DNA from: Candidatus Fermentibacterota bacterium
GTDB lineage: Bacteria > JAFGKV01
Length of the DNA stretch: 64,000 nt
Assembly: GCA_016928395.1 (NCBI GenBank)
Contig: JAFGKV010000134.1
Location: 3,583 to 67,582 of the forward strand
Direction of reading: 5' to 3'
The notes beneath the pieces were generated by a model. It worked only from the letters and a program-made list of their open reading frames with translations. It made no database searches and had not been told where the DNA came from. Below are positions 17,209-46,456 of this stretch, piece by piece. Position 1 is the stretch's first letter, and each line of letters opens with the position of its first letter. The position numbers were made by a program, and so were the translations under genes.

Positions 17209-17468
17209 TGGATGGATGGAATGATGGACAAGCGGGCGGGGCCTGTGAACTGGAGTGCCCGGCTCGCCGATTACGATAGCGATAGCGACCCGCAGGCCCG
17301 GCCGACCTACGAGGCAACGGCGCCGTGGGCGGCTCCGTAGGGGAGGGACCTGTGCCCTCCCGCTCAGTGCGCCGTACTCTCAACCCTCGAGAAATCTGAG
17401 TGCCTCCACACTCAGAGGCCGGACTGAACCCTGAACCCTGCAACCTCAATGGAGAAAGAGAGAGACCA
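17209..17468. repeat. Composite intergenic repeat-like element
   Basis: 260 bases between two VWA genes, with an unusual patchwork. A TGGATG-type tandem run immediately follows the stop codon (17207-17229). A GATAGCGATAGCGAC stretch lies near 17276-17289. A perfect 7-bp inverted repeat has arms 17341-17347 and 17355-17361. CTGAACCCTGAACCCTG repeats occur around 17425-17441. A similar pair (TGGATGG run, then CCCTGAAACC repeats) occurs at 24612-24740. It looks like a dispersed noncoding element; the terminal GGAGAAAGAGAGA (17451-17463) serves as ribosome-binding site for the next gene. Confidence 0.45.
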
Positions 17469-28350: not shown

Positions 28351-28377
28351 GGATTGATGGGAGCATCGTACGTCCGA

Positions 28378-28417
28378 TCATCCACCCATCCAGTCATCCA
28401 ATCATCCAATCATCCAG
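28378..28417. repeat. Five tandem 8-bp units (TCATCCAN type)
   Basis: Five consecutive 8-base units (TCATCCAC, CCATCCAG, TCATCCAA, TCATCCAA, TCATCCAG) occupy the 84-base gap between the binding-lipoprotein stop and the ATPase start. On the coding (minus) strand they read TGGATGA-like. Similar TGGATGG runs occur at 17207 and 24612. It could tune transcript stability between lipoprotein and ATPase, or simply reflect slippage. Confidence 0.75.
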
Positions 28418-28434
28418 ATTTCCAGGGCACACTG

Positions 28435-29547
28435 CTACTTCGGCACTGTCCCCACCACACCCTGGACGAAGTAGGTCATGCCGAGGAGTTCCACGTCGGT
28501 GGCGCGGGTATCCGCTGGTATCGCCCGTGTTCCGTCCTGACGGAAAACCGGGCCGTCAAAGACATCAAAGCGGCCGTCCACGATGTCCTGCTGGCGGGAA
28601 GCAACAAGCTGGCGCACATCCTCGGGTACGGCCGGGCCCCAGTCAGCCAGCGTGGTGAGGCCGGTTTCCATGCCCCACCAGTAATCCTCGCTCTTCCACA
28701 CCCCGGCAAGCACCTCCTCCACGATGCGGGAATAGAGAACGCCCCAGTCCCAGATGGCCGCCGTGACGTATTTGGTGGGCGCGAAGGCCCGGGAATCGGA
28801 GTTATAGCCTATGGCGAAGATGCCACGTTCCTCCGCGGCCTGGATCGGCGCCGGGGAATCGCCCTCGCTCATGATCACGTCGCAGCCGGCATCCATTAGA
28901 CTTCTGGCGGCATCCTTCTCGGCCGCCGGATCATACCAGGCATTGGTCCACACGACATGCACGGTGCATGAGGGGTTCGCCTCCCGGGCGCCCAGGGTGA
29001 ATGCGTTGACATGGCGGATTACCTCTGGGATCGGCACGGGTGCGACATAGCCGATCTTGCCCGACGTCGTCAGCGCGCCCCCCGCCAGCCCCGCGAGGCA
29101 GATGGTCTGATACGCGCGGCCGAAGTAGGTGCCAACATTGGCGGCGCGCTTGAACCCCGTGGCGTGCATGAACACGGTGGCAGGGAACCTCTCGGCTGCG
29201 GCAAGCACGGCATCCATGTACCCGAAACTGGTGGCGAAGACGAGCGTGCAGCCCTCCTGGGCGAGTTTGCTCAAGACTCGCTCGGCGTCAGCTCCTTCCT
29301 TGACATTCTCCACACACATGGTCTGAAGGCCGGGAAAACGCGATTCCAGCGCCTTGCGGCCCTGGTCGTGGGCAAAGGTCCACCCTGCGTCACCGATGGG
29401 GCCGACATAGATGAACCCGACCTTACGATCCACCTTCGTGGGGTTACCGGCCTCGTCACCCTTGTCTTCCTTGTGCGAAGCCTGGTCACCGCACGCGGAG
29501 AGGAGCACAACGCTCAGCAGGACCACAGTCATCCGAGTGAGTAGCAT
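28435..29547 (-). CDS. BMP-family substrate-binding lipoprotein of nucleoside ABC importer
   Basis: 370 residues with a lipoprotein signal (VVLLSVVLLSAC, lipidated Cys19) and AAGGAGG upstream. The BMP (PnrA-like) fold motifs are visible: KVGFIYVGPIGDAGWTFAHDQGRKALE near 42, AERVLSKLAQEGCTLVFATSFGYMD, VGTYFGRAYQTICLAGLAGGALT, GKIGYVAPVPIPEVIRHVNAF and GYNSDSRAFAPTKYVTAAIWDWG. Such proteins bind purine or other nucleosides at the outer face of the inner membrane. It is the first gene of a four-gene operon (lipoprotein, ATPase, permease 1, permease 2) encoding a complete importer. Confidence 0.95.
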   Translation of the reverse strand: MLLTRMTVVLLSVVLLSACGDQASHKEDKGDEAGNPTKVDRKVGFIYVGPIGDAGWTFAHDQGRKALESRFPGLQTMCVENVKEGADAERVLSKLAQEGCTLVFATSFGYMDAVLAAAERFPATVFMHATGFKRAANVGTYFGRAYQTICLAGLAGGALTTSGKIGYVAPVPIPEVIRHVNAFTLGAREANPSCTVHVVWTNAWYDPAAEKDAARSLMDAGCDVIMSEGDSPAPIQAAEERGIFAIGYNSDSRAFAPTKYVTAAIWDWGVLYSRIVEEVLAGVWKSEDYWWGMETGLTTLADWGPAVPEDVRQLVASRQQDIVDGRFDVFDGPVFRQDGTRAIPADTRATDVELLGMTYFVQGVVGTVPK

Positions 29548-29830: not shown

Positions 29831-31144
29831 ATGGATCGACCGAAGATGATTGCGCCTGCCGAGGGGAAGCTGGGTGTGCTGCTTCCCGGCATGGGCGCCG
29901 TTGCGACAACCTTCATTGCCGGGGTCGAGGCAGTCCGCAAGGGCGGGGGGCTCCCCATCGGCTCCGTGACACAGATGGGCACGATCAGACTGGGCAAGCG
30001 AACCGAGGGAAGATCTCCCCATATCAAGGATTTCATACCTCTGGCCTCGTTAAACCAGCTTGTGTTTGCCGGCTGGGACATTTTCACGGACAATGTCCAT
30101 GACGCGGCAATTCGAGCGGGAGTCTTGCGGCCTGAACTCCTGGCGCGGCTTCGCCCCGAGTTGGAGGCCATCTCGCCGATGCCTGCCGTGTTCGACCGTC
30201 ACTACGTGAAGCGGCTCGACGGCCCGAACGTCAAGAAGGGTGCCAACTGGCGGGAACTGGCGGATCAGCTTGGCGACGATATCGCCTCGTTCAAGCATCG
30301 TGGTGGATGCGACCGCCTGGTGATGATCTGGTGCGGCAGCACCGAGATCCACATGGTTCCCTCGGAAGTGCACCAGACCCTGGAACGCTTTGAACGCGGG
30401 TTGGCCGAGAGGGATCCGGCTATCTCCCCCAGCATGGTCTACGCATACGCGGCCATCAAGGCCGGTATTCCCTACGCCAATGGCGCGCCTAACCTCTCCG
30501 CGGATATCCCCGCCCTCATGGACTTTGCCCACGACCGCGGAGTACCGCTGGTCGGGAAAGACTTCAAGACGGGCCAGACCCTCATGAAGACCATACTGGC
30601 TCCGGGCCTGAAGGCACGCATGCTCGGAATCCAAGGGTGGTTCTCTACCAATATCCTGGGTAACCGTGACGGCGAGGTGCTCGACGATCCGGAAAGCTTC
30701 AAGACCAAGGAGGAAAGCAAACTCAGCGTTCTCGAGCACATACTGCAACCCGAGGTCTATCCCGATCTGTATGACGGGCTGTATCACAAGGTTCGCATCA
30801 ACTACTACCCGCCCCGAGGCGACAACAAAGAAGGGTGGGACAATATCGATATCTTCGGGTGGCTGGGCTATCCCATGCAGATCAAGATCGACTTCCTCTG
30901 CAGAGACAGCATCCTGGCTGCGCCTTTGGTGCTCGATATTGCACTATTCCTTGACCTCGCGGCCAGATCGGGATGGCGAGGCATTCAGGAATGGATGTCT
31001 TTCTTCTTCAAGAGCCCCATGCATGCCCCGGGGCTCTATCCGGAACACGATCTCTTCATCCAACTCATGAAGCTGAAGAATACGCTCCGGTTCTTGATGG
31101 GCGAAGAGTGTATTACGCATTTGGGGAACGAGTACTACGACTGA
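29831..31144 (+). CDS. ino1: Myo-inositol-1-phosphate synthase
   Basis: 437 residues of the inositol-3-phosphate synthase family, soluble and NAD-dependent, converting glucose 6-phosphate to inositol 1-phosphate. Motifs: the Rossmann loop VLLPGMGAVATTFIAGVEA near residue 15, YAAIKAGIPYANGAPNLSAD, GKDFKTGQTLMKT with the conserved lysines, GWFSTNILGNRDG and FLCRDSILAAPLVLDIALFLDLA. CAGGAGGAAG lies 6 bases before the ATG. In bacteria this enzyme feeds phosphatidylinositol, dialkyl-ether inositol lipids or compatible solutes. The next genes do not belong to an inositol pathway, so the product's fate is unclear. Confidence 0.95.
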   Translation: MDRPKMIAPAEGKLGVLLPGMGAVATTFIAGVEAVRKGGGLPIGSVTQMGTIRLGKRTEGRSPHIKDFIPLASLNQLVFAGWDIFTDNVHDAAIRAGVLRPELLARLRPELEAISPMPAVFDRHYVKRLDGPNVKKGANWRELADQLGDDIASFKHRGGCDRLVMIWCGSTEIHMVPSEVHQTLERFERGLAERDPAISPSMVYAYAAIKAGIPYANGAPNLSADIPALMDFAHDRGVPLVGKDFKTGQTLMKTILAPGLKARMLGIQGWFSTNILGNRDGEVLDDPESFKTKEESKLSVLEHILQPEVYPDLYDGLYHKVRINYYPPRGDNKEGWDNIDIFGWLGYPMQIKIDFLCRDSILAAPLVLDIALFLDLAARSGWRGIQEWMSFFFKSPMHAPGLYPEHDLFIQLMKLKNTLRFLMGEECITHLGNEYYD

Positions 31145-32775: not shown

Positions 32776-33392
32776 TGCGTGAGCCCGGCCTGTTTCCCCG
32801 TCAGAGAGCCCTACTCCGGGAAGTACGGCGTCTCACGAAGGAGCAAGGCTATCCTCCCACGATCCGTGAGCTGGCCCAGGCCCTCGGTGTTCGCTCGCCC
32901 AACGGCGTCCGACAACAGCTCCTCTCCCTGGAACGAAAGGGGTGCCTCAGACGCGAGCCGGGTAAGCCCCGGGGAATCGTCTTGGCAGACTCCGCGGAGG
33001 AGGAATCCATTCCCATCCTTGGGCTCGTCGCCGCCGGATCTCCAATCGATGCGGCCGAGATGCACCGCGGACGACTGGCGCTTGGCCCTTCACTGGGCGT
33101 GGCGACCGACAGATGCTTTGCGGTGGAGGTCGAAGGCGAGAGCATGATTGGAGAGCACATCGTGCAAGGTGATTTCGTCGTGCTCGATCCGGGAGTGGAA
33201 CCGCGCAATGGCCATATCGTAGGAGTCACGGTCGACGGGGCCGTGACCCTGAAGACGTATCATTCCGACTACGACGGCGTGGAACTCCGCCCCGCCAACC
33301 CCCGCATGCGTGCCATTCAGATCCGCTCGGGAACGGTGCATGACGCCCGGGTCATGGGAGTGGCCGTGGCCGTGGTCCGTCGCTTGGGATGA
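32775..33392 (+). CDS. lexA: LexA-type SOS repressor
   Basis: 205 residues. The N-terminal winged helix reads PTIRELAQALGVRSPNGVRQQLLSLERKGCLRR. A linker follows, then the S24 self-cleavage domain. The scissile Ala87-Gly88 bond is in LVAAGSP, the nucleophile Ser123 in VEVEGESMIGEHI and the general base Lys160 in GAVTLKTYH. All required residues are present, so RecA-stimulated autocleavage is expected. The ATG overlaps the preceding stop by one base, and its own stop overlaps the next gene by 4 bases, an unusual setting for a repressor at the head of an envelope gene run. No SOS box was identified by eye. Confidence 0.94.
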   Translation: MREPGLFPRQRALLREVRRLTKEQGYPPTIRELAQALGVRSPNGVRQQLLSLERKGCLRREPGKPRGIVLADSAEEESIPILGLVAAGSPIDAAEMHRGRLALGPSLGVATDRCFAVEVEGESMIGEHIVQGDFVVLDPGVEPRNGHIVGVTVDGAVTLKTYHSDYDGVELRPANPRMRAIQIRSGTVHDARVMGVAVAVVRRLG

Positions 33393-35308
33393 GCATAGTG
33401 CGCCGTCTCTGGCTGCTGCTTTTGCTGCCCTGCGCCGCAATGGCCGACTGGGGCGGTGTGGCCGGTGCCTACCTTCGTTTCGGGGCCTCGGCCCGCACCC
33501 TGGGTATGGGAGGATTGGATCTAGTGCTGGGACGCGGTGACGCCGCAGCCTACGGGAATCCAGCCCTGATCGGCCTGTTGGACGCCCGTGAGCTGTCATT
33601 CACCCATGTGGCCCTGTATGAGGGGTCATCCTATTCCGTAGCCACGGCGGCCCTTCCCGGCCAACGATGGGGCGGCCTGGGCCTGGCGGTGGTCAGTCTG
33701 CGATGCGACGGCTTCGAGAAACGAGGCGAATTCGACAATCGATACTCTATCAAAGGGGAGGAGTTCGGCAGCGCCCAGACCGCACTCCTTGCCGGAGGGG
33801 GCAGGGATCTCAGTTCGTGGGCCACGGGAACCTCCCTGGGTGGTCGGATCATCATTGCCGGGCACTCGATGCTGGATCAGCGGGCATTCGGCTTCGGCGC
33901 GGATTTCGGCATCGAACACCGGATGGTACTCCCCTATGTCCATCGACGTCTCGCTCCTCTGACCGTGGCCGTGACGGTTTCGAACGTACTCCAGCCTCGC
34001 GTTCGAATGGAGAGAGATGTGGAGCGTTTTGCCCGCCGCGTCGACGTGGCAGCAAGCTATGCCGTGCATCCTTGGGGCGCACTGGGATTGCAGGCCTGCG
34101 TGGCCGGCGATGCGAGCCGGCGGTTCATAGCCGGCATCGAGGCTATGCCGCGTTCCGACCTGGCGCTTCGGCTTGGTGGCAATGCCTCCGAGCTGACTGC
34201 AGGAGTGGGCCTTGCCTGGAAGGGGCTTGGCATAGACTACGGCGTGGCCTGGCATGACGAGTTCTCGCTCAGCCACAGGCTGAGCCTCGTCGTGGCCCGT
34301 CCTCGGCGGCCCGCGACGGAACCCTCCTCCCTGCCGCTCTGGGATGCCTCCCGGTGGGTGGTGCAACATTACCGTGACCCGAAGGCAGCGGATGCGGCCC
34401 ATCGGCTGGCACAGGCGTTCGGCGGGAGAAGGGCGTCCCGACTCTACCGGTACGTTGTCGGTCAGCACCCCGCCACGATCTGGGCCGCCCATGGATGGCG
34501 ATGGTTCGGCGATCGGTCCTACGAGGACCGCAACTGGAAGAAAGCCGAAACCAACTTGGTGCGGCTTCTGGGCCATCCCCACAGGGATGATGTGGCGGTG
34601 CCCGCCACCTGGTTCAGGCTTGGGGATGCGTCCGAGCATCTGGGTCATTGGCGGACGGCGGTGGAGGGCTACGAGCTGGTGATGCGAGCATCGGGCGAGC
34701 CCGAAGACAAGGCGGAATCGTTCTTCCGAGCGGGGGCGATCCATTTCCTGCATTTGACCGACTATGCGGCGACCGTCCGCGTGTATGAAGAGGCCGTTAC
34801 CCGGTATCCGACCCGTGATCTGTCTGATGCCTTCTTCCGGCTCGGCAGGTCGTATGCGGAGCTTGCACGGTGGCAAAGCTGCATCGACAGGATGGATGTG
34901 TTCCTGGCCAGGTATCAGACCGATTCCAGGGTTCCGGCCGCCCTCTTTTGGAGCGGGCGTGCCTACTACGAGCTCGGGTTGCCTGAGGAGGCGCTGCTCC
35001 GGCTGGAACGAGTGGTCGAGGGCTATCCTCAGGATGAGATAGCAGACGACGCAGTCTTGTACAAGGGGCACTGCCGTCGGCTCACTGGAGAACTGGCGCT
35101 GGCCCGGATCGAGTATGCGCGGGTGGTGAAGGATTTCCCGATGGGAGACACCGCGCCTCTGGCCCAGCTTTCCTTGGGCATTGTGCTGCAGGACGAGGGC
35201 TCGCATGACATGGCGATTCGCGAATTCCAGCGATTCATTGTGAACTATCCCACTCATCCCGGCCGGAAAGAAGCAGAGGCTCGCCTCGGCACGTTGCGCC
35301 GTGAATGA
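33389..35308 (+). CDS. PorV/PorQ-like barrel fused to TPR domain, outer membrane
   Basis: 639 residues with a signal peptide (RLWLLLLLPCAAMA). Residues 20-310 resemble the PorV/UPF0164 outer-membrane barrel: YLRFGASARTLGMGGLDLVLGRGDAAAYGNPALIGLL is the diagnostic N-terminus (RxxGMGGA...NPAxL), followed by alternating strands. From about 330 it changes to helical TPR repeats (WFRLGDASEHLGHWRTAVEGYE, FFRLGRSYAELARWQSCIDRMD, LFWSGRAYYELGLPEEALLRLE) that run to the end. The fusion puts a periplasmic TPR scaffold onto an outer-membrane barrel. It starts within the lexA stop (4-base overlap) and precedes exbB, exbD and tonB by 49 bases, implying one machine. Confidence 0.88.
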   Translation: MSIVRRLWLLLLLPCAAMADWGGVAGAYLRFGASARTLGMGGLDLVLGRGDAAAYGNPALIGLLDARELSFTHVALYEGSSYSVATAALPGQRWGGLGLAVVSLRCDGFEKRGEFDNRYSIKGEEFGSAQTALLAGGGRDLSSWATGTSLGGRIIIAGHSMLDQRAFGFGADFGIEHRMVLPYVHRRLAPLTVAVTVSNVLQPRVRMERDVERFARRVDVAASYAVHPWGALGLQACVAGDASRRFIAGIEAMPRSDLALRLGGNASELTAGVGLAWKGLGIDYGVAWHDEFSLSHRLSLVVARPRRPATEPSSLPLWDASRWVVQHYRDPKAADAAHRLAQAFGGRRASRLYRYVVGQHPATIWAAHGWRWFGDRSYEDRNWKKAETNLVRLLGHPHRDDVAVPATWFRLGDASEHLGHWRTAVEGYELVMRASGEPEDKAESFFRAGAIHFLHLTDYAATVRVYEEAVTRYPTRDLSDAFFRLGRSYAELARWQSCIDRMDVFLARYQTDSRVPAALFWSGRAYYELGLPEEALLRLERVVEGYPQDEIADDAVLYKGHCRRLTGELALARIEYARVVKDFPMGDTAPLAQLSLGIVLQDEGSHDMAIREFQRFIVNYPTHPGRKEAEARLGTLRRE

Positions 35309-35357
35309 TGGTGGGTGGGCGTAGGGATTCTTCGTCTTCTGGGTGAAGGGAGATGGC

Positions 35358-36167
35358 ATGAGACTAGCCGTGGGAAGCGCGGTGTTCATCGTGGCGCTCG
35401 GCGCCATGACGATCGCCGGCGCGCAGCCCCCCCAAGATCCGGCGGGGCTGGAGGGTGAGAGCGAGGCACTGGGTCTGCCCGTGGTTGACACCGTGACGCT
35501 GGAGCCTGTCCGTGAAGAAGGCCACATCATGGTGAAGCGGGGCTTCATTCAGGATTTGTGGCGCAAGGGCGGCCCGGTGATGTGGGTTCTACTGGCCAAC
35601 TCGGTGTTCGGCATTTCCTTGGTTGTGGAGCGGCTGCTTGCCCTACGACGATCCAAAGTGCTGCCGACATCGTTTCTCAGGAATGTCCGTACCCGATGGC
35701 TTTCCGGCGATGTGAAGGGTGCCTTTGACCTGTGCAGCGAGACCGACATCCCCATCGCCCGGGTGCTCAAGGCGGGTCTCGCCAAGCACGGCAGGGGCGT
35801 GGCGGAGATCGAGCGCGCCATCGAGGCTTCGGGTGGCCATGAGATTCAATCTCTGTCCAAACACCTGCGCACCTTGGGCGCTCTGGCGAGTATCGCTCCT
35901 CTCCTGGGCATTCTGGGTACCGTCACGGGAATGATCAAGGCGTTCAACACCATTGCCGTGAGCGGGTCGCGCCGGCCCGACCTCATCGCCTCGGGTATTT
36001 CGGAGGCTCTCATTACCACGGCCACCGGGCTCTCCATCGGCATTCCGCTGTTCGTGCTGTACCATTACCTCATGGGCAGGGCCGAGCTTCGTACCTGGGA
36101 GATGGAGGAGGTCGCCATCGACATCGTCGAGAATCTCTCACTCCGGAGCGAGGGCATTGAGGTTTAG
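35358..36167 (+). CDS. exbB: ExbB/TolQ/MotA-type proton channel
   Basis: 269 residues from an ATG at 35358 with GAAGGGAG upstream (a GTG at 35343 is possible). An N-terminal signal-like helix is followed by a periplasmic stretch of about 60 residues, then the three-helix MotA/TolQ/ExbB core. The conserved pore helices are GALASIAPLLGILGTVTGMIKAF and ISEALITTATGLSIGIPLFVLYHYL, with the invariant Thr/Gly residues. With ExbD it forms the proton channel that powers TonB. An ExbB with an extra signal peptide and extended N-terminal region is known in FCB and some proteobacterial variants. It overlaps exbD by 11 bases. Confidence 0.93.
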   Translation: MRLAVGSAVFIVALGAMTIAGAQPPQDPAGLEGESEALGLPVVDTVTLEPVREEGHIMVKRGFIQDLWRKGGPVMWVLLANSVFGISLVVERLLALRRSKVLPTSFLRNVRTRWLSGDVKGAFDLCSETDIPIARVLKAGLAKHGRGVAEIERAIEASGGHEIQSLSKHLRTLGALASIAPLLGILGTVTGMIKAFNTIAVSGSRRPDLIASGISEALITTATGLSIGIPLFVLYHYLMGRAELRTWEMEEVAIDIVENLSLRSEGIEV

Positions 36168-36579
36168 AAAGCGCACCCCGGAGGGGATCGAACTGCAAAT
36201 CGTGTCGCTTATCGACGTGGTCTTCCTCCTGTTGATCTTCTTCCTCATGGGTACGACCTTCGTCGACCTCCTGGACAAGCTGGACATCCGCCTGCCGGAA
36301 AGCACGGCGACCACCCGGCAGCAACGCCGCAACCACCTCATCGAGCTGAGCGTAGACGGCCGGATGTTCCTGGACGGGGTCACGGTCACCATGGAGGATC
36401 TGCCTCTCCGGCTGGAACAGGTCTCTTGGGACCCGGGTATGGGAGGAAGAGTCGCTATCATCAAGGCGGACAAGCGAGTCACCCACGGCGACGTCGTCAG
36501 GGTGATGGGCATCTGCAAGAAGGCGGGAGTGCTCCAGGTCGGTATTGCAGCACTGCTGGAAATAGAAGAGGAAGTCTGA
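36157..36579 (+). CDS. exbD: ExbD/TolR biopolymer transport protein
   Basis: 140 residues from a TTG at 36157 inside the end of exbB, the only start that preserves the conserved N-terminus RFRKRTPEGIELQ. One membrane helix carries the essential aspartate in IVSLIDVVFLLLIFFLMGTTF, and a periplasmic alpha/beta domain follows (RNHLIELSVDGRMFLDGVTV, VAIIKADKRVTHGDVVRVMGICKKAG). It is the stator partner of ExbB; the Asp is the proton-conducting residue. Overlap and order show exbB-exbD-tonB is one operon. Confidence 0.93.
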   Translation: MRFRKRTPEGIELQIVSLIDVVFLLLIFFLMGTTFVDLLDKLDIRLPESTATTRQQRRNHLIELSVDGRMFLDGVTVTMEDLPLRLEQVSWDPGMGGRVAIIKADKRVTHGDVVRVMGICKKAGVLQVGIAALLEIEEEV

Positions 36580-36612
36580 GGCGCGGCCGAACGCCGGGCG
36601 TGGAGAGATAGG

Positions 36613-37557
36613 ATGCCAGCAGAAGCCATGGTGTTCCGGAAAGATTCCTTCTGGTCTTCAGGAGTGATAGTATCCCTCCTGGCCCATGTCGTCGTGCTGG
36701 TAAGCCTGAACCAGCTTCCCACGGCCCGGGTCCGCCTTCAGCCCCGGGAACTGATAATGGAGGTTGACCTCATGGAGCCTCCGCCCACGCCCGAACCTCC
36801 GCCTGAATCACCGCCTCAGGAGCGGGGCGAACTTGCCCAGCCTCCCCAGCCAAACCTGCTGGACATGAGCGCCGCGGCGCTGCCCGAGCCAGGGCAGGAC
36901 CTGTTCCGGGATTTGCCTGTGCCCGACCTCGATTTGAGTTACGAATCGCCCCTTGATCTGCAGCAGCCGACCCTCGATCTGACTGAGAGGGATGTACTGC
37001 GATCAGATGCCAAGCAATCGGCCCTTTCGCTGGATGGGGAGTTCCTACCGACTCTGCCGGGCGACAGGCTGGATGTGGGAGGCCGTAGAGACGCCATGGT
37101 GGTTGGGGAAGCCAGCCGCGACGGCCTGGCGCCGGCACCGGTAGGCCCCGGCCATACGCCGCGAACCGTGGGCTATCCCACCGCCAGGCCCACGGAGCGC
37201 ACCAGCGGCCTGGAGAGCTCTCCAGTTCGACCCGCTGGAGCCTCTCGGTCCTTGGGCGTACCCGATAAGCCAACCGTGGGCGCTCCCGGCGAGGTGATGC
37301 CTGGTTCACGGACTCGGAAACGTCTTCGCCTTGTGGAGCCTACCGTGCCCGCGTGGGTCGAGGACCAGGGCATCGAAGCCTATGCGAAAGTACGTTTTCA
37401 GATTCTGGAAGACGGGAGGATCGGCACCATCGAGCTGACCATGTCCTCAGGCTATCGTGAGCTGGACAATCTCGCCATCGGCGCGGTGAAACAGTGGCTG
37501 TATGAACCGGGGCTGGTTGAGTACCGGTCCGTCAGGGTGAACTTCAAGCTACGGTAG
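36613..37557 (+). CDS. tonB: TonB energy transducer
   Basis: 314 residues. A single N-terminal membrane anchor, SGVIVSLLAHVVVLVSL, includes the His typically needed for coupling to ExbB. A Pro-rich stretch (EPPPTPEPPPESPPQERG type, about 55-75) and a long low-complexity linker span the periplasm. The C-terminal TonB domain (about 245-314) has VRFQILEDGRIGTIELTMSSGYRELDNLAIGAVKQWLYEP. It begins 33 bases after exbD. It probably couples the proton gradient to an outer-membrane component; a TPR/barrel protein lies upstream, and a TonB receptor is encoded far away at 59110-61419. Confidence 0.92.
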   Translation: MPAEAMVFRKDSFWSSGVIVSLLAHVVVLVSLNQLPTARVRLQPRELIMEVDLMEPPPTPEPPPESPPQERGELAQPPQPNLLDMSAAALPEPGQDLFRDLPVPDLDLSYESPLDLQQPTLDLTERDVLRSDAKQSALSLDGEFLPTLPGDRLDVGGRRDAMVVGEASRDGLAPAPVGPGHTPRTVGYPTARPTERTSGLESSPVRPAGASRSLGVPDKPTVGAPGEVMPGSRTRKRLRLVEPTVPAWVEDQGIEAYAKVRFQILEDGRIGTIELTMSSGYRELDNLAIGAVKQWLYEPGLVEYRSVRVNFKLR

Positions 37558-37674
37558 TGGGCAGTTCGACAACCACAGCACGAGTGACTGACTGACATGC
37601 GTCCCCTTGCCCCCAGACAACCGGTCTGGGGTGGCGGCTGTGCCCACCCTCCTGCCGTGAGTCTTGAGGCGTCC

Positions 37675-40600
37675 ATGTATCTCCAAGTGCTCACCCTCAA
37701 CGCCCTGTGGATTCGCTGGCGGAAGACCTTCCTGGTCTGGCTCGCTGTCCTCGGCATTGTCGTACCTGCCGTGCCGGCACAGAATGCCGATGCCATTGGG
37801 GCATTCCGGTATGCGGCAGGTCTCTTCGATATGGGCGAGTATGAGCTGGCTGCCGCGGAATTCGACCATGTTCTCTCGTCATTCCCCGGCGACTCCCTGG
37901 CGCCCTCAGCGGCCTACTGGCTGGGAGAGAGCCTCTTCCAGCTGGAGCGATTTGGCGACGCGGCCAACGCGTTCTCCAGGGCGGTACGGCCGAGCGCCGA
38001 CCTGGGATTGCAGGAGGATGCCCGTATGCGCAGGGCCGAGGCATTGTGGGCTGCGGGCGATACGCCGGGAGCGATCCTGGCCTACGAAGCCGTGCTGTCG
38101 GCCCACCCTGTAGGGAAGTATCGGGGCAAGGCGAGCTATTGGCTCGGCAGAGCCTATGTCTCCGCTGGACGAAAAGTGGATGCCGCACGGGTTCTGAGAA
38201 ACGCTGCGGCGTGGGGGGAGGACGCTCTGCAGCGGGCGGAAGCCGCCTACCTCGCAGGTGACATCCTTCGGGAGCTGTCGCGATGCGATGAAGCCGGGGA
38301 GCACTACCGGGATGTGCTGCGGCTTACTCCCCACGGCGCGCACGCTCCCGCGGCCTTGGAGGGTCTGGCCCGATGCGCCATAGACGCTGGAGCATGGGAG
38401 TCGGCGGCCGAGGCGCTCCGCACGCTTACGGAGACATTCCCCACGTCACCGCAGGCCAGCGACGGCAGGTTTCATCTCGCAGAATGCCTCTCAACACTGC
38501 ACCGGCCCACCGAGGCGCTGGCTGCCTACAAGGCCGTCTTGAGAGACGGGGCAGCTCATGCGCTCTGGGACAAGGCCCTGTACGGGGAGGCATGGGCCTA
38601 TGCCGCCGCTGGTGACACAGTGGCCGCATTGGCCTCCTTTGCCCAGTTGGCGACCGATTTCCCCACCAGTGCCCTGGCATCGGAAGCAGCGTTCCGGGAG
38701 GCGCAACTGGCGTACGCCGCCGGTGAACACGCCCGCGCCATCCGGTCCTTCGGTCGCATCATGGCCGACTGGCCAACGTCGGCGTTCGTCTCCTCGGCGC
38801 TGTACTGGAGGGGATGGGCACATCAGAAGCTGGGCGGCCTGCCCCAGGCCGAGCGTGATTTCCTGAACTACGCGGCTTCCTATCCCGATTCACAGTATGC
38901 AGCCAATGCCTTGCTGCTCGCCGGCCTGGCTGCAGTGGACCAGGGCTCATTGTCCAGAGGCGCCGAGGCATTGGAGCGGGCGCGAAAGCAGTACCCGGGT
39001 TCCTCGGTCATGCCCCAGGTGCTGACGGCACTGGCCTCCGCCTATTCAAAGCTGGGTGAGCCCGCCCGAGCCGATGGTGCGCGTTCCCAGCTGGCCGTGA
39101 ACCACCCCGAAACTGAAGAGGGGAGGGCCGCGCTCCTGCAGAAGGGATTCTCTGATCTCGAAGAGGGGCGGGAGTCCGCAGCCTTGGCGAGTCTCTCCAC
39201 TCTCCTCTCGCGCCCCGATATCGGTGAAGATCAGAAGGCCAAGGCGGTCTACTACCTGGCCGAAGCCCACTACCGGCTACACGACTGGGCAGAAGCTGAA
39301 TCGCTGTACGCACGGTCCGAGCTGATGAATGCCGAGGGCGACTTGGAGGATGACAGCGTCTATGGGCGGGCCTGGTCGGCCCTGAAGGCAGGGAAGACCG
39401 AGGAGGCCGGCAGGGTGTTCCAGCGTCTTGCCGTGATGCATCCAGACAGTCCCTTCGCGGCTGAAGCAGCCTTCAGGTACGCCCAGACACTCTATGATCG
39501 AGGGGCATACGAGGATGCGGCTGCAGCCTATGGCGGTCTGGTGAATCGACACGGGGGTAGCGAGTACGCCGACGATGCGGTCTATGCAGGCGCCTGGTCT
39601 TTGGTGAAGAACGGCGCCATAGCCGAGGCGGCGGCCCAGTTTTTGCGGCTGGTGGAGATCTACCCCGCCAGTCCGCTGATTCCCGATGCCTTGTATGATC
39701 TGGGATCCTGCTATAGCCAACTCGATCGCCCCGCAGCCACCGCACGCACTCTGCAACAACTGCTGGAGCAGTATCCACACCACGTCAAGGCTCCAGAAGC
39801 CGCCACCGCTTTGGCCTATGCCTACGACGCGTTGGGACAGCCCGCCCGACGAGACAGCGTCCTATCACAGATGGAGTCTCAGGGCAGCAGCGCCTCGGCT
39901 GCCGCCGCGATGTTGGCATTTGCGGGCGGGAAGATGGAAGGCGATCCCGACGAAGCCCGCGCACTGCTATCCCGCATTATTGCCCGCCACCCGGATTCTC
40001 CCGAGGCAAAGGAGGCCAGGTTGCGGCTCGCGAACTTTCTCACCCAGGAGGGACGCTTCGCCGAGGCCTATGACATGGTTGCGGCCCTGTGTAGTGATGA
40101 CGACGCCCAAATTCTGGGGCGCGCATGTGTGCGTGCGGGTGAGACCCAGTTCGAGATGGCCGAGTACGAAGAGGCCGCCCGTTTCTACCGGATGGCGCTG
40201 GATGAGGGCACCGGGATTGACCGGGGCATTGCATGGTACGGCATCGCGTGGTCGAACCTGGAGTTGGGCCGGCGCGATGCAGCCATCGAAGCCCTGCTGA
40301 GGCTCTTCCGGGAACATCGGCAGAGCCCGGTGTGGACGGATGGCTCCTATCGGCTAGGACAGCTCCTTGCCGATGCCGACCGCAAGAAGGAAGCCGCCGA
40401 TGTGTATGCGGCGTTGGGTGACGATGTGGAGTTAGGCTCCCTGGCCCTGGATGCGACGTATCGCCGTGCCATTCTCCTTCGCGAGCGCAAGGCATATACC
40501 CAGGCAGCAACCCTGCTGCGAAAGGTTGCTGCAGGCAGCGACAGCACTCTCGCGCTGCAGGCCATGCTGGAATTGGGGCGAACCCTCCACGAACAGGGCC

Positions 40601-41148
40601 GCCTGACAGAAGCAACGGACGTATTCATCCAGCTGGCCGGCAGAACCCCTGATGAACGTGCCGCACAACAGGCCATGTACTCCGCCGGCGTGTGTCAAAC
40701 TTCGATGAAGCGGTGGAAGAAGGCCGCCGAATACTTCGGCAAGGCATCTGCCATGCCCGGTCCGAACCGCTCGGACGCACTTCTGGGCGAAGGCTGGGCC
40801 AGAGCCGCGGCGGGAGAGCACCAGAAGGCGTCCCAGCTCTTCGTCACAATCCTGCAGGAAACACCCGACTATGCCAAAGGCGCCGAGGTGGCCTTCAGGC
40901 TTGCCCAGAGCTTGCAGGAATTGGGGCACTATACCCAGGTCGACAGCATTTGCACCGAGCTGGTTGGCCGCCAAGACTGGCCATATCCCGACCGTGCGCT
41001 GTACCTTGGCGCCACCGCCAAGGAGAAGCTGGGAGACACCGAGGGGGCGATTGCCGCCTATCGGGGCTTGATCGAGGAGTATCCTTCCAGCAGTCTTGTG
41101 CCCTATGCAAAGGCGCATGCCGATGCGCTGGCAGGAGAAAAAGGTTGA
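37675..41148 (+). CDS. Very large secreted TPR protein A
   Basis: 1157 residues from an ATG at 37675 with GAGG upstream; the open frame to 37597 lacks a ribosome-binding site. An N-terminal hydrophobic signal (FLVWLAVLGIVVPAVPAQ) is followed by about 30 TPR/Sel1-like helical repeats with the BamD-like consensus YxxGxxxFxxGxYxxAAxxFxxVxxxYPxSxxAxxAxYxxG, for example AIGAFRYAAGLFDMGEYELAAAEFDHVL. TPR arrays of this length form superhelical scaffolds for protein binding, here presumably in the periplasm. It lies 117 bases after tonB and 2 bases before a second TPR protein. Confidence 0.88.
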   Translation: MYLQVLTLNALWIRWRKTFLVWLAVLGIVVPAVPAQNADAIGAFRYAAGLFDMGEYELAAAEFDHVLSSFPGDSLAPSAAYWLGESLFQLERFGDAANAFSRAVRPSADLGLQEDARMRRAEALWAAGDTPGAILAYEAVLSAHPVGKYRGKASYWLGRAYVSAGRKVDAARVLRNAAAWGEDALQRAEAAYLAGDILRELSRCDEAGEHYRDVLRLTPHGAHAPAALEGLARCAIDAGAWESAAEALRTLTETFPTSPQASDGRFHLAECLSTLHRPTEALAAYKAVLRDGAAHALWDKALYGEAWAYAAAGDTVAALASFAQLATDFPTSALASEAAFREAQLAYAAGEHARAIRSFGRIMADWPTSAFVSSALYWRGWAHQKLGGLPQAERDFLNYAASYPDSQYAANALLLAGLAAVDQGSLSRGAEALERARKQYPGSSVMPQVLTALASAYSKLGEPARADGARSQLAVNHPETEEGRAALLQKGFSDLEEGRESAALASLSTLLSRPDIGEDQKAKAVYYLAEAHYRLHDWAEAESLYARSELMNAEGDLEDDSVYGRAWSALKAGKTEEAGRVFQRLAVMHPDSPFAAEAAFRYAQTLYDRGAYEDAAAAYGGLVNRHGGSEYADDAVYAGAWSLVKNGAIAEAAAQFLRLVEIYPASPLIPDALYDLGSCYSQLDRPAATARTLQQLLEQYPHHVKAPEAATALAYAYDALGQPARRDSVLSQMESQGSSASAAAAMLAFAGGKMEGDPDEARALLSRIIARHPDSPEAKEARLRLANFLTQEGRFAEAYDMVAALCSDDDAQILGRACVRAGETQFEMAEYEEAARFYRMALDEGTGIDRGIAWYGIAWSNLELGRRDAAIEALLRLFREHRQSPVWTDGSYRLGQLLADADRKKEAADVYAALGDDVELGSLALDATYRRAILLRERKAYTQAATLLRKVAAGSDSTLALQAMLELGRTLHEQGRLTEATDVFIQLAGRTPDERAAQQAMYSAGVCQTSMKRWKKAAEYFGKASAMPGPNRSDALLGEGWARAAAGEHQKASQLFVTILQETPDYAKGAEVAFRLAQSLQELGHYTQVDSICTELVGRQDWPYPDRALYLGATAKEKLGDTEGAIAAYRGLIEEYPSSSLVPYAKAHADALAGEKG

Positions 41149-41150
41149 CC

Positions 41151-43673
41151 ATGCTTCATTTACTCGCGCTGTGCCTACTATTGATCGGCGGCGGAGAGAC
41201 CCTCGCACCCGACCAGGAACTCTATCTTCAGGGGGCCCAAGCGTTTGACCGTGACGACTTCGGCGTTGCCATGACCAGCTTTGAAGCTCTCCTTCACCGG
41301 CACTCCTCTAGCTCGCTGGCCTGTCCGGCGCACTATGCGCTGGCTGAGACCTACTACAGCCTTCAGCAGTATCAGAAGGCCCTGGCTGAGCTTGATGCGG
41401 TAGACTCTCCGTGTGAGACCCGGGTAGGTCGCGGCCGGGTTCAATGGCGGAGAGCCTGGGTACTGTACCATCTCGGGCGGCTTCCGGCCGCGGGAGAAGC
41501 CTTTCAGCAGGCAAGCACGAGCCCCGACCTCTCCGCCAATGATCAAACCGCAGCCATGGTAATGGTCGGTGACGTCGCGATGGAACAGGGCAGGGCTGCC
41601 GATGCGCTGTCCGCCTACCGGCGCGTCGTCCAGCGCAACATGCCGTCGCCGCTTCTGTGCCAGATTCACTACAAGATCGGGCGAGCAGCACTGACGGAAG
41701 GGGCCTTTACCGAGGCCCAGACTGCGTTCGCCACCGTGGTGCAACTTGACTCCCGTTCCGAATTCGCCGACGATGCCGTCTATGGCCGCGCGTGGGCACT
41801 GCGGAAGCAGAAGAAGCATGAAGGCGCTCGCGCCGCATGGCATCAGCTCATCGTGACCTATGCGCAATCGCCGCTGGCTCTGGAAGCACGATTCCGGATG
41901 GGCGAGGAGTACTATAGCTTAGGGAAGTATCAGGAAGCCATCATGGCGTTCGATACAGTACCCGCCGCCAGCGATTTTGCCGACCATGCCATGTACTGGA
42001 AGGCGTGGGCCGAATACCGGCTGGACCAGTTCTCGAAGGCCGCATACACGTTCAGCCTCATCCGGACCAGTTTTCCCAGATCCCGGCTGGCCACCGATTC
42101 CCAGTTCCGCGCGGCGGATGCCCATCGGGAGGCTGGCCAGTATGAACTGGCCTTGCGAGGGTATCGCGTACTGGTGGAAATGAAACCCAGCGAAGAGTAT
42201 CTCGTCGAGTCGCTCTATGGCATGGCGCAATCCGCGGCCTTCAGCGGCGACCTTTCCGCGGCCGAGAACTATCGCACGCAGCTCTTGTCCACGGGAAAGG
42301 CCGGCGACTTCGCCCCGCGGGCATTCTTCGACCTGGGCGTCGCCGCCTACAACCGCAAGCAGTACGGGCGTGCCATCCGGGAGTTCTCCACGCTCCTCTC
42401 CCAGTACCCCGCCCACAGCCTGGCGAACGAAACCTGGTACCACTTGGGGTTGAGCCACTTGCGCGATGAGCGTTATGGCGAGGCCAGAAACGCGTTCCAG
42501 CGCACCATCAAGGCTGCGCCCAACAGCGAGACCGCCTCTCTGGCGGCCTATCAGTTGGGCTGGGCGTACTTCCGTGATGGCGAGTTTGACCGCGCCGCCG
42601 AGCAGTTCAATGAGGTGAGCAGACGGGGCGGCCCCCGGGCCACAGACGCCCTGTATCGCTCTGGCGACGCTCTGTACAACGCCGGCCGATACACAGACGC
42701 CATCGCAGTGTATCAACAAGTCATCGACATGGCCCCGGGCTCTGAGCTGGCTGCCACGGCCCAGAACTCCATCGGGTGGTGTTATGAACGGCTGAGCCGG
42801 CCGGCCGAGGCCATTGGCGCCTTCCATGTGGTCGTCGATCGCTACCCCCAGAGCCTTGTGTGGGACGACTCTGCCTACAAGATTGCCGAATACTACCACG
42901 GTGCCGGAGACTACACGCTGTCGATTCCTATCCTCGAGGCGTTGCGCAGCGCCCCGGGTTCGCCTTTCTGGGAGAGCAGCCTGCTGATGCTGGGCAGCGA
43001 TCTCTGGAAGACTGGCCGTAAGCGTGAGGCTCGAAGCGTGATCGAGTCTCTCCTGTCCAGGAGAGACTCGCCTCTCAGGCCCGACGGTCTGCTACTGCTC
43101 GCCGACGCCAGTTGGGATGATCGTGACTGGGACCAGGCTCAGGCCCGCTATGCGCAATTCGCCGAGGAGTACCCTTCCAGTGAATCAGCCGCCCTGGCGT
43201 TCCTGCGTGTGGCGGAATCCTATGCTGCACAAGAACTCTGGGACAAGGCAGCCGAGGCGTTCACCCGCGCTTCCGTGGCCGGAGCGCCTCGCGCCTCCTG
43301 CCTCGCGGGCACCTGCAAGGCAGCGGCCAACGTAGGCCGATGCGCCGAGGCCGAGAACGCCGCGCGAACAATGGAGACAGACTTCCCCACCGACGCCCGA
43401 ACCGCCGACGCCCAGTTCTGGGCCGGGAACTGCTATGTAGGCACGGGAGACGATGAAACGGCCGCGCGCCTCCTACTTAAGGTGCCCATCTTGTATCCTG
43501 ACAGTGACCAGGCTGACGACGCCCTGCTGCTGGCAGCCCGTGCACGGTTGAGGCAGGGCCGCGGCGACCAGGCAGAGCGGCATCTTCGGCTCCTTCTCGA
43601 GAAGTACCCTGCCTCGGAGCTGCGAGGACAGGCTGAAAGGCTCCTGGCATCCATGGAAGGGGGGACACGATGA
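41151..43673 (+). CDS. Very large secreted TPR protein B
   Basis: 840 residues from an ATG at 41151, two bases after the stop of protein A; the open frame extending back into protein A is a shadow. A short signal peptide (LHLLALCLLLIGGGETLA) and more than 20 TPR units follow, each like AFFDLGVAAYNRKQYGRAIREFSTLLSQYPAHSLANETWYHLG. The repeats share the YPxSxxAxxAxxxLG spacing of YbgF/CpoB and BamD proteins, which work with Tol/Ton systems. Its stop overlaps the next gene by 4 bases. It is probably a periplasmic scaffold partner of protein A. Confidence 0.88.
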   Translation: MLHLLALCLLLIGGGETLAPDQELYLQGAQAFDRDDFGVAMTSFEALLHRHSSSSLACPAHYALAETYYSLQQYQKALAELDAVDSPCETRVGRGRVQWRRAWVLYHLGRLPAAGEAFQQASTSPDLSANDQTAAMVMVGDVAMEQGRAADALSAYRRVVQRNMPSPLLCQIHYKIGRAALTEGAFTEAQTAFATVVQLDSRSEFADDAVYGRAWALRKQKKHEGARAAWHQLIVTYAQSPLALEARFRMGEEYYSLGKYQEAIMAFDTVPAASDFADHAMYWKAWAEYRLDQFSKAAYTFSLIRTSFPRSRLATDSQFRAADAHREAGQYELALRGYRVLVEMKPSEEYLVESLYGMAQSAAFSGDLSAAENYRTQLLSTGKAGDFAPRAFFDLGVAAYNRKQYGRAIREFSTLLSQYPAHSLANETWYHLGLSHLRDERYGEARNAFQRTIKAAPNSETASLAAYQLGWAYFRDGEFDRAAEQFNEVSRRGGPRATDALYRSGDALYNAGRYTDAIAVYQQVIDMAPGSELAATAQNSIGWCYERLSRPAEAIGAFHVVVDRYPQSLVWDDSAYKIAEYYHGAGDYTLSIPILEALRSAPGSPFWESSLLMLGSDLWKTGRKREARSVIESLLSRRDSPLRPDGLLLLADASWDDRDWDQAQARYAQFAEEYPSSESAALAFLRVAESYAAQELWDKAAEAFTRASVAGAPRASCLAGTCKAAANVGRCAEAENAARTMETDFPTDARTADAQFWAGNCYVGTGDDETAARLLLKVPILYPDSDQADDALLLAARARLRQGRGDQAERHLRLLLEKYPASELRGQAERLLASMEGGTR

Positions 43674-44986
43674 GACGGTGGCTGATCCCCCTTGTCTTCG
43701 CGGGGGCGCTCCACGCACAGACACCGTCGGTGGCGCAACCGGGAAAGATCGAGCCGCCTGAGGAAGAGATAACGGTCTTCGGCGAGCAGAAGCAACGCCT
43801 CCAGATGCGTCGCGATGCCCGCGAACTGGCCCTTCTTGAGGAGTCTCTGCGAACTCGATTCGGGCTCAATCGTCCAAGTGCGTCTCCCGATCGACTTCTC
43901 GACCGTGGGGTCGTTCTCCTGAATTGCGCGGGACTGGAAGCCCAGTCACGGCCCGGAGGAGCGGAGGTCTTCATTGACGGCAGCATAGCCGGCGAGACTC
44001 CAGTGTCAGCGAGCGGTCTTCCCAGCGGCCGTCATATCGTGGCCATGCGGCACCGCGGGTACGAACTGTGGACCGCCCCGGTGCTTTTCCCGCCTTGGGG
44101 TACCGCACGAGTCACCGCCAGCTTGGACCGGAGAATCTCCTACGAACTCAGCGCCGTGTGGCGAACCGAAGACGCCCAGGATCGGCCCAGTGGTCTGGCT
44201 GTGCTTCGACCGGGAGAGGTGTTTGTATCGGGTGGCGGCACGGTGAAGCTGTGGGCGCGAGGCAAACCTCAACGAGATCTTCGCGCCGACGGGATGGTTG
44301 AGCCAAGGGGTATGGCCCTCTCACCCTCGAAACAGCATTTGTACGTAGCGGATCCTGGATGCCATACCGTCTGGTGTATCGATGCCGCGACCGGCCGCCT
44401 CATACGGCGCCTTACCGAAGGAAGCGGTCAACCCCTCCATCAGCCCACCGATGTTGCCGTGGCGGAAGACGGACGTGTCCTGGTGTGCGATTCGGGCAAT
44501 CACCGATTGGTCTGGTTCAACGCCGACGGCCAATGGGTGGAGACGTGGGGAAAACGGGGGGATGACCAGGGGATGTTTCGGCATCCCGAGGGCGCCGCCA
44601 TCGATGAGAACGGCGCGGTGTACGTTGCCGACTGGGGAAACAACCGTATTCAAGTACTGGCACCCAAGGGGGCAGTGCTGCGTGTGTTTGGCCAGCAGGG
44701 CATGGCACCGGGGCAACTCCAGGGACCGACAGAAGTATGCCTTGAGGAAGGGGGCTACCTGCTGGTCGTAGATTCGTTCAACGATCGGGTGCAGCGGTTC
44801 AGGCGTGACGGCACTATTGTCAGCGTGCTTCCGGAGGCTCGCGGCCTCGGCACCTTCACCAAACCATTCAGCGCCGCATTGGATCCCTCGGGGCTCGTCT
44901 ATGTCACCCAACGCGACCGTCACGGCATTTTGGTGCTGCGACAAGTGTGGGAGCAGGGGTACATGAGCGCCGTGCTCAGGCCCTGA
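43670..44986 (+). CDS. Secreted PEGA plus NHL beta-propeller protein
   Basis: 438 residues with a signal peptide (WLIPLVFAGALHAQ). Residues about 95-150 form a PEGA domain (SRPGGAEVFIDGSIAGETPVSASGLPSGRHIVAMR). From about 165 an NHL six-bladed propeller follows with repeats such as LHQPTDVAVAEDGRVLVCDSGNHRLVWFNADGQ and FRHPEGAAIDENGAVYVADWGNNRIQVL. Both domains are extracytoplasmic binding modules, PEGA often linked to the cell surface or peptidoglycan. The start overlaps TPR protein B by 4 bases, making it the last member of the barrel/ExbBD/TonB/TPR run. Function unknown. Confidence 0.88.
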   Translation: MRRWLIPLVFAGALHAQTPSVAQPGKIEPPEEEITVFGEQKQRLQMRRDARELALLEESLRTRFGLNRPSASPDRLLDRGVVLLNCAGLEAQSRPGGAEVFIDGSIAGETPVSASGLPSGRHIVAMRHRGYELWTAPVLFPPWGTARVTASLDRRISYELSAVWRTEDAQDRPSGLAVLRPGEVFVSGGGTVKLWARGKPQRDLRADGMVEPRGMALSPSKQHLYVADPGCHTVWCIDAATGRLIRRLTEGSGQPLHQPTDVAVAEDGRVLVCDSGNHRLVWFNADGQWVETWGKRGDDQGMFRHPEGAAIDENGAVYVADWGNNRIQVLAPKGAVLRVFGQQGMAPGQLQGPTEVCLEEGGYLLVVDSFNDRVQRFRRDGTIVSVLPEARGLGTFTKPFSAALDPSGLVYVTQRDRHGILVLRQVWEQGYMSAVLRP

Positions 44987-44996
44987 AGCATCTCGA

Positions 44997-45491
44997 ATGC
45001 GGATCGCGGCGTGTGTTCTCCTGCTTGCTGCCTGTGGGGGCTGTTATTCCTTTTCTGCCCGAACCTCGACCCGCATACGCTCCGTGGCCGTTCCCTTTTT
45101 CGAGAACCACAGCGGGCGCTTTGGGCTGGAGGGATTAGTCACCGAAGCGGTTGCCAAGGGGTTCCTTGATGATGGTGATCTTCGAGTCGTGGATGAGCGG
45201 TCCGCTGACTCAGTGCTACGGGGTATCATCACGGGGTACGACCACAAGGCTGCCGTGTATGACCAGAGTGAGCAGGTCAGCACCATGCGCGTCACCATCA
45301 CGGTCGACGTCATCTACCGTGATCTCACCAAAGGCACCGTGGTCTGGGAGCAGAAGGGGCTGTCCGCATGGGGGCAGTACCGTCTTGTGACGTCGGCGGA
45401 AGGACCGGCGCAGACCGAGGAGGACGGCCAGGTTGAGGCGATACGCCGCCTGGTTCAGGAGATCTTGGCTCGCTCCATCGAGACATGGTGA
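44997..45491 (+). CDS. lptE: LptE-like LPS-assembly lipoprotein
   Basis: 164 residues. A lipoprotein signal (CVLLLAAC, lipidated Cys13) is followed by the LptE pattern RIRSVAVPFFENHSGRFGLEGLVTEAVAKGFLDDGDLRVVD and RGIITGYDHKAAVYDQSEQVSTMRVTITVDVIYRDLTKGTVVWEQ. LptE plugs the LptD barrel and helps place lipopolysaccharide in the outer leaflet. The gene overlaps a lipid A acyltransferase by 7 bases, which supports this. The family is weakly conserved, so the identification rests on pattern and context. Confidence 0.85.
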   Translation: MRIAACVLLLAACGGCYSFSARTSTRIRSVAVPFFENHSGRFGLEGLVTEAVAKGFLDDGDLRVVDERSADSVLRGIITGYDHKAAVYDQSEQVSTMRVTITVDVIYRDLTKGTVVWEQKGLSAWGQYRLVTSAEGPAQTEEDGQVEAIRRLVQEILARSIETW

Positions 45492-46456
45492 AGCCAAAAC
45501 GGTGGCGCCATCGGGGAGAATGGTGGTTGCTTCGGGGAACCCTTGCCGCCACGAGGCATCTCCCTCGGCGCGTGTATCCCACCGTGGCAAGATGCCTGGG
45601 GGCAGCGGCCTTCGACGTGTTTCGCCTCAGACGCCGCGTGGTGGAGCACAACCTGACACGGGCATTCGGCGGTGAAATGCAGTCGCCTCAGCGCCGACGC
45701 GTCGGCAGGAAATGCTACCAGGAATTGGCTCTGGGAGCGCTGGAGATGGCGGCACTGCACCACAAGGGAGCCGCTCATGTGCTAGAGACCTGTCGGATCC
45801 GGGGGGGGCGCGAGCATCTGGATCAGGTGCGCTCCGGCAAATCGGGGTGCATCCTCGTGACAGGCCACTTCGGCAACTGGGAGTACCTCGCAGGAGCCCT
45901 GGCCGTATGGGGCGTGCCGGTCAGCGCGGTGGGCGCACCGATGAGGAACCCACTGGTAGACCGCTGGCTCACGTCGCTGCGCACCGGGCTAGGAATCGAG
46001 ATACTGCGTACGGGCCGCGGGTCGGGCCGGGCCGCGCTTCGTGCTCTGCGGGCCGGCCGAGCCGTGCTCCTGCTGATAGATCAAGACGCCCGCAACCACG
46101 GCATGTTTGTGGATTTCTTCGGCATCCCCGCCAGCACCCACGTTGGGGCTGCCGTTTTGGCTCACCACACCGGTGCCCCAGTATTTCCTTGCAGGATAGA
46201 CCGCGATGGCCTGCGTCACGTTGTGTCCGTCTATCCCCCCTTGACGCTTTCCCATGCGGGCGGCAAGTCCGCCATTCTCGACACCACACAGGCAATCACG
46301 ACCATGCTGGAATCGTGGATACGAGAGCGCCCCGCATCGTGGTTTTGGCCCCACCGGAGGTTCAAGACCCAACCGCCCTCTCCGTGCACTCCCCTGCCCT
46401 TCACCGCTGGAAAAGGAGCCCAATGTGGAGCGAACCTTGCTCATCATCAAACCTGA
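45485..46456 (+). CDS. Lipid A lysophospholipid acyltransferase (LpxL/HtrB family)
   Basis: 323 residues. The acyltransferase motif HFGNWEYLAG (HxxxxE active site) lies at about 127-136. RALRAGRAVLLLIDQDARNHGMFVDFFG follows near 190, and WFWPHRRFK near the end, all typical of Kdo2-lipid A late acyltransferases. These inner-membrane enzymes add secondary acyl chains to lipid A, so the organism probably makes LPS. The C-terminus after residue 293 is low-complexity, because the frame continues 32 bases into ndk. It overlaps lptE. Confidence 0.9.
   Translation: MVKPKRWRHRGEWWLLRGTLAATRHLPRRVYPTVARCLGAAAFDVFRLRRRVVEHNLTRAFGGEMQSPQRRRVGRKCYQELALGALEMAALHHKGAAHVLETCRIRGGREHLDQVRSGKSGCILVTGHFGNWEYLAGALAVWGVPVSAVGAPMRNPLVDRWLTSLRTGLGIEILRTGRGSGRAALRALRAGRAVLLLIDQDARNHGMFVDFFGIPASTHVGAAVLAHHTGAPVFPCRIDRDGLRHVVSVYPPLTLSHAGGKSAILDTTQAITTMLESWIRERPASWFWPHRRFKTQPPSPCTPLPFTAGKGAQCGANLAHHQT

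Follow-up and report, generated by a model that had tools for sequence, protein, structure and literature searches.

A conserved seven-gene block from Fermentibacterota encodes a candidate Ton-type force machine with giant TPR proteins and a propeller

What does a Ton motor do when its operon encodes no receptor? TonB is generally taught to energise nutrient receptors, and the question is raised by a block of seven genes (positions 33389-44986) in a 64,000-nucleotide stretch of DNA from a Candidatus Fermentibacterota bacterium (contig JAFGKV010000134.1; hereafter the window, in plus-strand coordinates). The source is a 4.79-Mb draft genome on 343 contigs that is ~94% complete. The block encodes, in this order, a PorV-like outer membrane barrel fused to a tetratricopeptide repeat (TPR) domain, ExbB, ExbD, TonB, two giant TPR proteins (TPR-A and TPR-B) and a propeller protein with PEGA and NHL domains. 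A preliminary description of this DNA had regarded the seven genes as one system whose motor probably serves something other than ordinary nutrient uptake. Comparisons within and between phyla support one conserved unit, and we regard it as an evenly balanced proposition that this unit is a dedicated, proton-driven force machine of the Ton type, in which TonB grips the N-terminus of the propeller and pulls a TPR/barrel complex at the outer membrane.

Conservation of the block within the phylum

All seven genes were found as first described, on the plus strand and with intergenic gaps of -11 to +117 bases, and their family assignments are backed by Pfam. Conservation was assessed in three genomes of the phylum: the window genome (G000), G001 and G002. 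In G002, which belongs to another genus of the same family, the entire block is collinear and most proteins are 39-70% identical; the conserved order reads PTS EIIA, LexA-like, barrel-TPR, ExbB, ExbD, TonB, TPR-A, TPR-B, NHL, LptE, LpxL, Ndk, DUF177 and PlsX. Orthologues of the barrel-TPR protein have 71% and 54% identity and the TPR-B orthologue has 57%. In the third genome the block is distributed over contigs, with its start on one and TPR-B and the propeller on another. As the full order is kept in a second genus, the block is not a chance association, and the idea that the seven genes are one conserved unit is supported. The earlier claim of one system holds to this extent, and also in that the order recurs in another phylum (see below); that the products act as a single complex is what we infer.

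The motor and its partners

The three motor genes encode an ExbB/TolQ-like proton channel that carries a periplasmic extension at its N-terminus (35343..36167, +; MotA_ExbB, E 5e-30), an ExbD/TolR-like subunit with a TTG start that overlaps ExbB (36157..36579, +; ExbD, E 2e-25) and a TonB with a proline-rich linker (36613..37557, +; TonB_C, E 2e-11). There is exactly one ExbD and no additional gene among ExbB, ExbD and TonB. The window ExbB aligns to solved TolQ across the conserved GTV.G and TA.GL helices, ExbD retains its membrane Asp (SLIDVVFLLL), which aligns with the Asp of solved ExbD, and TonB has the SxxxH membrane helix (SLLAH, as read from the sequence) and a TonB C-terminal domain, with a phmmer match of 2e-5 to solved TonB. 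Judged from these sequences, the motor looks competent.

The barrel-TPR fusion (33389..35308, +; 639 amino acids) has a signal peptide, a PorV/FadL-like outer membrane barrel at ~20-310 and a TPR domain at ~350-639 (TPR_6 on the C-terminal half, E 4e-21). Its barrel half is only remotely PorV-like (NCBIfam PorV_fam, 37.5 bits, E 2e-9; cut-off 90). TPR-A (37675..41148, +; ~1157 amino acids, TPR_6 E 9e-67) has 19 repeats scoring above 5 bits against a TPR profile built for this analysis and further repeats by spacing, and TPR-B (41145..43673, +; ~842 amino acids) has TPR_6 at E 1e-65. By eye, both giant TPR proteins and the propeller protein have apparent signal peptides at their N-termini, consistent with secretion.

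The propeller protein (43670..44986, +; 438 amino acids; NHL E 4e-29, PEGA E 5e-10) consists of a signal peptide, a TonB-box-like motif, a helix, the PEGA domain and a six-bladed NHL propeller. In an AlphaFold2 model calculated from single-sequence input, the blades mostly have a predicted local distance difference test score (pLDDT) of 80-95 and residues 11-145 have low values; the top Foldseek matches of the model are NHL domains.

The motif, EEEITVFGE (43760..43786, +; residues 31-39), sits directly after the signal peptide. Across the three genomes PEEEITV[FY]GEQ is invariant except for the F/Y position, and the residues preceding it have diverged. On its own the strength of the motif is modest; we give it weight because it is conserved past a diverged lead-in and recurs at the corresponding place in the operon of a second phylum. 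Judged from its sequence, it is likely the point where force would be applied; the preliminary description had not mentioned it.

The same order in a second phylum

In the phylum of genome G031, a second small candidate phylum represented by three genomes, the order is PorV-like, ExbB, ExbD, TonB, a giant TPR protein (1016 amino acids) and a 422-amino-acid secreted protein. The latter begins with SEQLEMDVITVYGKE after its signal region, and its motif, VITVYGKE, matches PEEEITVFGEQ of the window in both sequence and position. G145, from a second genus of that phylum, keeps the order, and its protein has EELEMMVITVYGKE. Thus, the order is conserved beyond close relatives, a point on which the preliminary description had staked its interpretation. 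At the G031 locus, no LptE/LpxL neighbours were seen.

When the pattern [DEQ][VI][IV]?T[VI][FYW]G was searched in the first set of loci, only the propeller orthologues and the 422-amino-acid protein of G031 were found. In a later set it gave one unrelated match in the middle of a protein and missed G145, which has a differing residue before the core. The whole collection of loci contains ~3,900 open reading frames (ORFs) of at least 150 amino acids.

Giant TPR proteins and ExbB across phyla

The window ExbB was searched in a sample of 145 genomes and flanking DNA was taken for part of the matches; a contig scan with an ExbB alignment gave at least 80 named loci, which are a sample and not a census. 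In total, ~180 ExbB loci were surveyed, with a giant TPR protein defined as an ORF of at least 400 amino acids with at least 4 TPR hits. Giant-TPR ORFs are within 4 kb of ExbB on the same strand in 35 of 37 cases, compared with 308/710 for all ORFs of that size (Fisher 1.6e-11, with related genomes not being independent). The contrary outcome named in the preliminary description, with TPR and TonB genes often separate and beside ordinary receptors, was not borne out. Carriers among the named loci include Omnitrophota, Ignavibacteria, Cyclobacteriaceae, a Rokubacteriota, a Lentisphaerae and a Planctomycetales record. One locus, L176, comes from a record with the title Melioribacter roseus, and its predicted partners are open to experiment in a lineage that has been cultured. 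A further PorV-TPR fusion is present beside giant TPR and ExbB in genome G074 (locus L140).

Many loci have a protein of 470-600 amino acids between the giant TPR protein and ExbB. The six of them that were compared with Pfam gave no match. The alignment of the ignavibacterial family matches siderophore receptors with its final strands (E 5e-7), the protein models as a barrel with its first 91 residues disordered, and Foldseek matched this model to BtuB and other TonB-dependent transporters; by alignment and model, the ignavibacterial partner is a receptor-type barrel without a plug. Its N-terminus carries IELPDFVITG or a similar sequence, in a region that ranks with the most conserved of the family. 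TonB-box-like patterns of this [LI]P[DE] type are present in 15 of 76 genes inside the systems and in 9 of 881 genes outside (two of the nine from such loci). At three loci (L082, L135 and L148) the motif is on the giant TPR protein itself. The window barrel was also considered as kin of these plugless barrels and rejected, as the comparison gave no relationship; a contig scan with the window barrel alone recovered no relatives.

Small NHL proteins are encoded near five Ignavibacteria loci (L190, L167, L176, L191 and L208), ~2.3-2.7 kb past ExbB on the minus strand, which is opposite to that of the TPR/barrel/ExbB/ExbD/TonB set. The same five loci have a protein of 546-706 amino acids between the plugless barrel and ExbB, with a start that by eye resembles HU-type DNA-binding proteins. 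At L140 and L098, a protein of 158-166 amino acids beside the giant TPR gene or ExbB looks, also by eye, like a cyclic-nucleotide-binding protein.

Receptors and Tol-Pal in genomes with such loci

Proteins with a Plug domain are present in 29 of 32 genomes with such loci. No Plug was found in G031 (94% complete), G127 (96%) and G138 (99%), and no receptor barrel was detected in these three genomes either. TonB_C is encoded at the system locus in G031 and G127 and was not detected in G138. As the locus and TonB are present in G031 and G127 and no receptor was detected there, ordinary receptor-driven uptake is not the general role, in agreement with the motor role initially proposed.

TolB_N was found in 9 of 32 genomes, which had been chosen for such loci. 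These loci occur both with and without Tol-Pal and can lack detectable receptors; the co-occurrence with Tol-Pal that had been suggested as a check is therefore mixed, and the window genome itself has its own Tol-Pal locus.

This locus is one of five ExbB loci in the window genome and lies on contig C259 with the order OmpA/Pal-TolQ-TolR-TolA-TolB: an OmpA match (C259:5112-5402) immediately precedes the ExbB/TolQ gene, and both TolB_N and PD40 were found in the fourth gene. A second ExbB locus is an ExbB-ExbD-ExbD-TonB-like set. A third, on C148 (L093), is related to the window system and encodes a 997-amino-acid TPR protein, a 475-amino-acid protein with the motif-like LDLPHLVVKG near its start, ExbB, ExbD, TonB (TonB_C, E 5e-8) and a 307-amino-acid NHL protein, without a PorV-TPR fusion. 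The 475-amino-acid protein was rejected as a relative of the plugless receptor-type barrels: only the N-terminal motif region is common.

The absence of a receptor, as originally reported, is correct for the operon, whose proteins have no Plug match in Pfam, but not for its surroundings: a TonB-dependent receptor (59110-61539, -; Plug E 8e-20, barrel E 5e-33, carboxypeptidase-regulatory domain) is encoded on the opposite strand, ~14 kb away from the Ton block, and 12 Plug proteins are present in the genome as a whole.

Proposed mechanism

In the proposed machine, ExbB and ExbD would drive TonB, and TonB would grip the motif at the N-terminus of the propeller in the way TolA grips TolB, an interaction for which strand augmentation at the TolB N-terminus is established (PMC8928145). 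The propeller, both giant TPR solenoids and the PorV-like barrel's TPR tail would form one complex, which would be remodelled or released when TonB pulls. The partner at the outer membrane would thus not be a plugged nutrient receptor. We infer the binding of TonB to the propeller, the physical complex and the pulling step. A machine that pulls on the outer envelope is probable because gene sets of this kind recur across phyla, even in two genomes that lack detectable Ton receptors. The neighbouring LptE and LpxL genes weakly favour a role in outer membrane assembly, lipid or export.

Several observations weigh against this proposal. The surveyed loci share ancestry. The motif is short, and both regular expressions used for motifs were framed after examples had been seen. 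With a matrix made from the TonB boxes of the phylum's own receptors, the propeller motif scores 9.0. This value is attained by 2.2% of ORFs and exceeded by segments of ExbB and TPR-A; the matrix was rejected as a discriminator, as the propeller is not singled out. In G031-type loci, the protein with the box is no NHL propeller. The N-terminal third of the propeller model has low confidence, and the model is based on a single sequence.

A wider interpretation is that the loci represent a third class of proton-driven trans-envelope force systems beside Ton and Tol, present in many phyla, in which a Ton motor pulls a giant-TPR complex via a TonB box; the bearer of the box would vary, being a plugless receptor barrel, the giant TPR protein or, in the window, the propeller. 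We propose this class tentatively and would put it somewhat short of an even chance. Widespread loci linked to giant TPR proteins and to plugless barrels or propellers with TonB-box-like motifs, present with TonB even where no receptor is detected, would mean that the mechanical work of the Ton motor at the outer membrane goes beyond nutrient receptors. No description of this combination of parts was found in the searchable literature, which is mostly open-access. The block belongs among the Ton/Tol motor systems: the Ton, Tol-Pal, Vibrio TonB2, Myxococcus Glt and von Willebrand A (vWA) transducer systems share parts with it, and none has the full set in the accounts consulted.

Alternative explanations

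The block could simply energise the plug receptors of the cell as a conventional Ton system, with the TPR proteins in an accessory role, for which the Vibrio TonB2 system (TtpB2, TtpC2, ExbB2, ExbD2, TonB2, TtpD2) is the precedent: siderophore uptake via TonB2 requires TtpD2, a TPR protein of 425 amino acids encoded beside tonB2 (PMC6957404). Such a role would suit a genome with 12 Plug receptors, one of them within the window, and the Ton system indeed shares with the block the motor, the transducer and a putative TonB box, and with the loci of other phyla a receptor-type barrel. However, the block lacks a plugged receptor and adds giant TPR proteins and a propeller, the available part of the Vibrio account mentions neither barrel nor propeller in that operon, the window genome has its other ExbB-ExbD-ExbD-TonB-like set, and G031 and G127 keep the locus and TonB_C with no Plug or receptor barrel detected; we consider the explanation unlikely. 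Part by part, the block also resembles TolQRA-CpoB-TolB of the Tol-Pal system: it has a motor, a transducer, a CpoB-like TPR protein and a propeller whose N-terminus is a candidate site for transducer binding. The block may be an outer membrane stabiliser of this kind, perhaps substituting where Tol-Pal is absent, given that TolB_N is found in just 9 of the 32 genomes. That the block is the Tol-Pal of its own lineage was rejected because of the separate locus on C259. Moreover, the propeller has NHL and PEGA domains and no Pfam match to TolB_N or PD40, the TPR proteins are far larger, and Pal is absent from the block (the OmpA matches of the genome are on C163, C259 and C188, none on the window contig C172). 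A stabiliser is therefore quite improbable.

PorV-like barrels serve the type IX secretion system (T9SS), and a machine for protein export or surface motility, akin to T9SS or to Myxococcus gliding, would accommodate the remote similarity of the block barrel to PorV/PorQ. The Agl-Glt part list is similar too: Myxococcus gliding relies on a motor of the TolQR type together with proteins that have a TonB domain, TPR proteins (one of 4132 amino acids) and outer membrane proteins (PMC3169522), and a TonB-dependent transporter, Myxococcus Oar, can serve secretion (PMC6434023). All three genomes of the phylum have a SprA_N-like match in long ORFs (G000:C299:67980-68369 in the window genome), possibly a T9SS-like translocon of the lineage to judge by sequence, but the match covers only about the last quarter of the family (positions 368-497 of 510) and is on a contig other than that of the block. 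Scores for GltC (18.6 bits for TPR-A and 31.5 bits for TPR-B; cut-off 450) and for PorV, PorQ and PorW are far below the cut-offs, and the barrel, unlike PorV and PorQ, is fused to a TPR domain. There is one ExbD in contrast to the paired TolR-like subunits AglQ/AglS, and no FHA domain as in the FHA-TonB protein GltG. None of the T9SS core genes PorK/L/M/N was seen in the block; a genome-wide search was not made. Overall, an export or motility machine is decidedly unlikely. The vWA force transducers, which are encoded with TolQ, two TolR and an uncharacterised TPR gene and were proposed as a new transducer class (PMC12204202), resemble the block in having motor genes beside a TPR gene, but theirs end in a vWA domain, whereas the block has a true TonB domain and propeller and barrel partners. 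Finally, there may be no single machine, and the genes may have separate functions within a housekeeping envelope and lipid supra-operon that runs from the LexA-like gene to LptE, LpxL and fatty-acid genes: the block does lie between the LexA-like and the LptE/LpxL/PlsX genes, and this arrangement is conserved as a whole. As genes of these kinds also lie together in other phyla, where the surroundings differ, this is very improbable.

Gene models and neighbouring genes

Two gene starts and the end of the run differ from the preliminary description. The ORF of TPR-A is open from 37597, the start first given, and its signal peptide begins at ~37675, which is probably the true start. The TPR-B start proposed at 40692 is out of frame inside TPR-A; the real start is TTG 41145 or ATG 41151. 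TPR-A and TPR-B overlap by 4 bases, as do TPR-B and the propeller gene, and the barrel-TPR gene overlaps the upstream LexA-like gene by 4 bases as well. The run does not end at 44986: a gene for an LptE-like lipopolysaccharide-assembly lipoprotein (44997..45491, +; LptE, E 3e-14) follows 10 bases past the propeller gene and is probably co-transcribed with the block, and it is overlapped by a gene for an LpxL-like lipid A acyltransferase (45485..46456, +), named by sequence character and not by family search.

Further upstream, the window encodes a myo-inositol-1-phosphate synthase (29831-31144, +) with more than 80% identity in both relatives, a Bmp-type ABC importer with binding protein, ATPase and two permeases (24766-29547, -) and two adjacent von Willebrand A proteins (14743-18611, +), one of which has a VIT domain.

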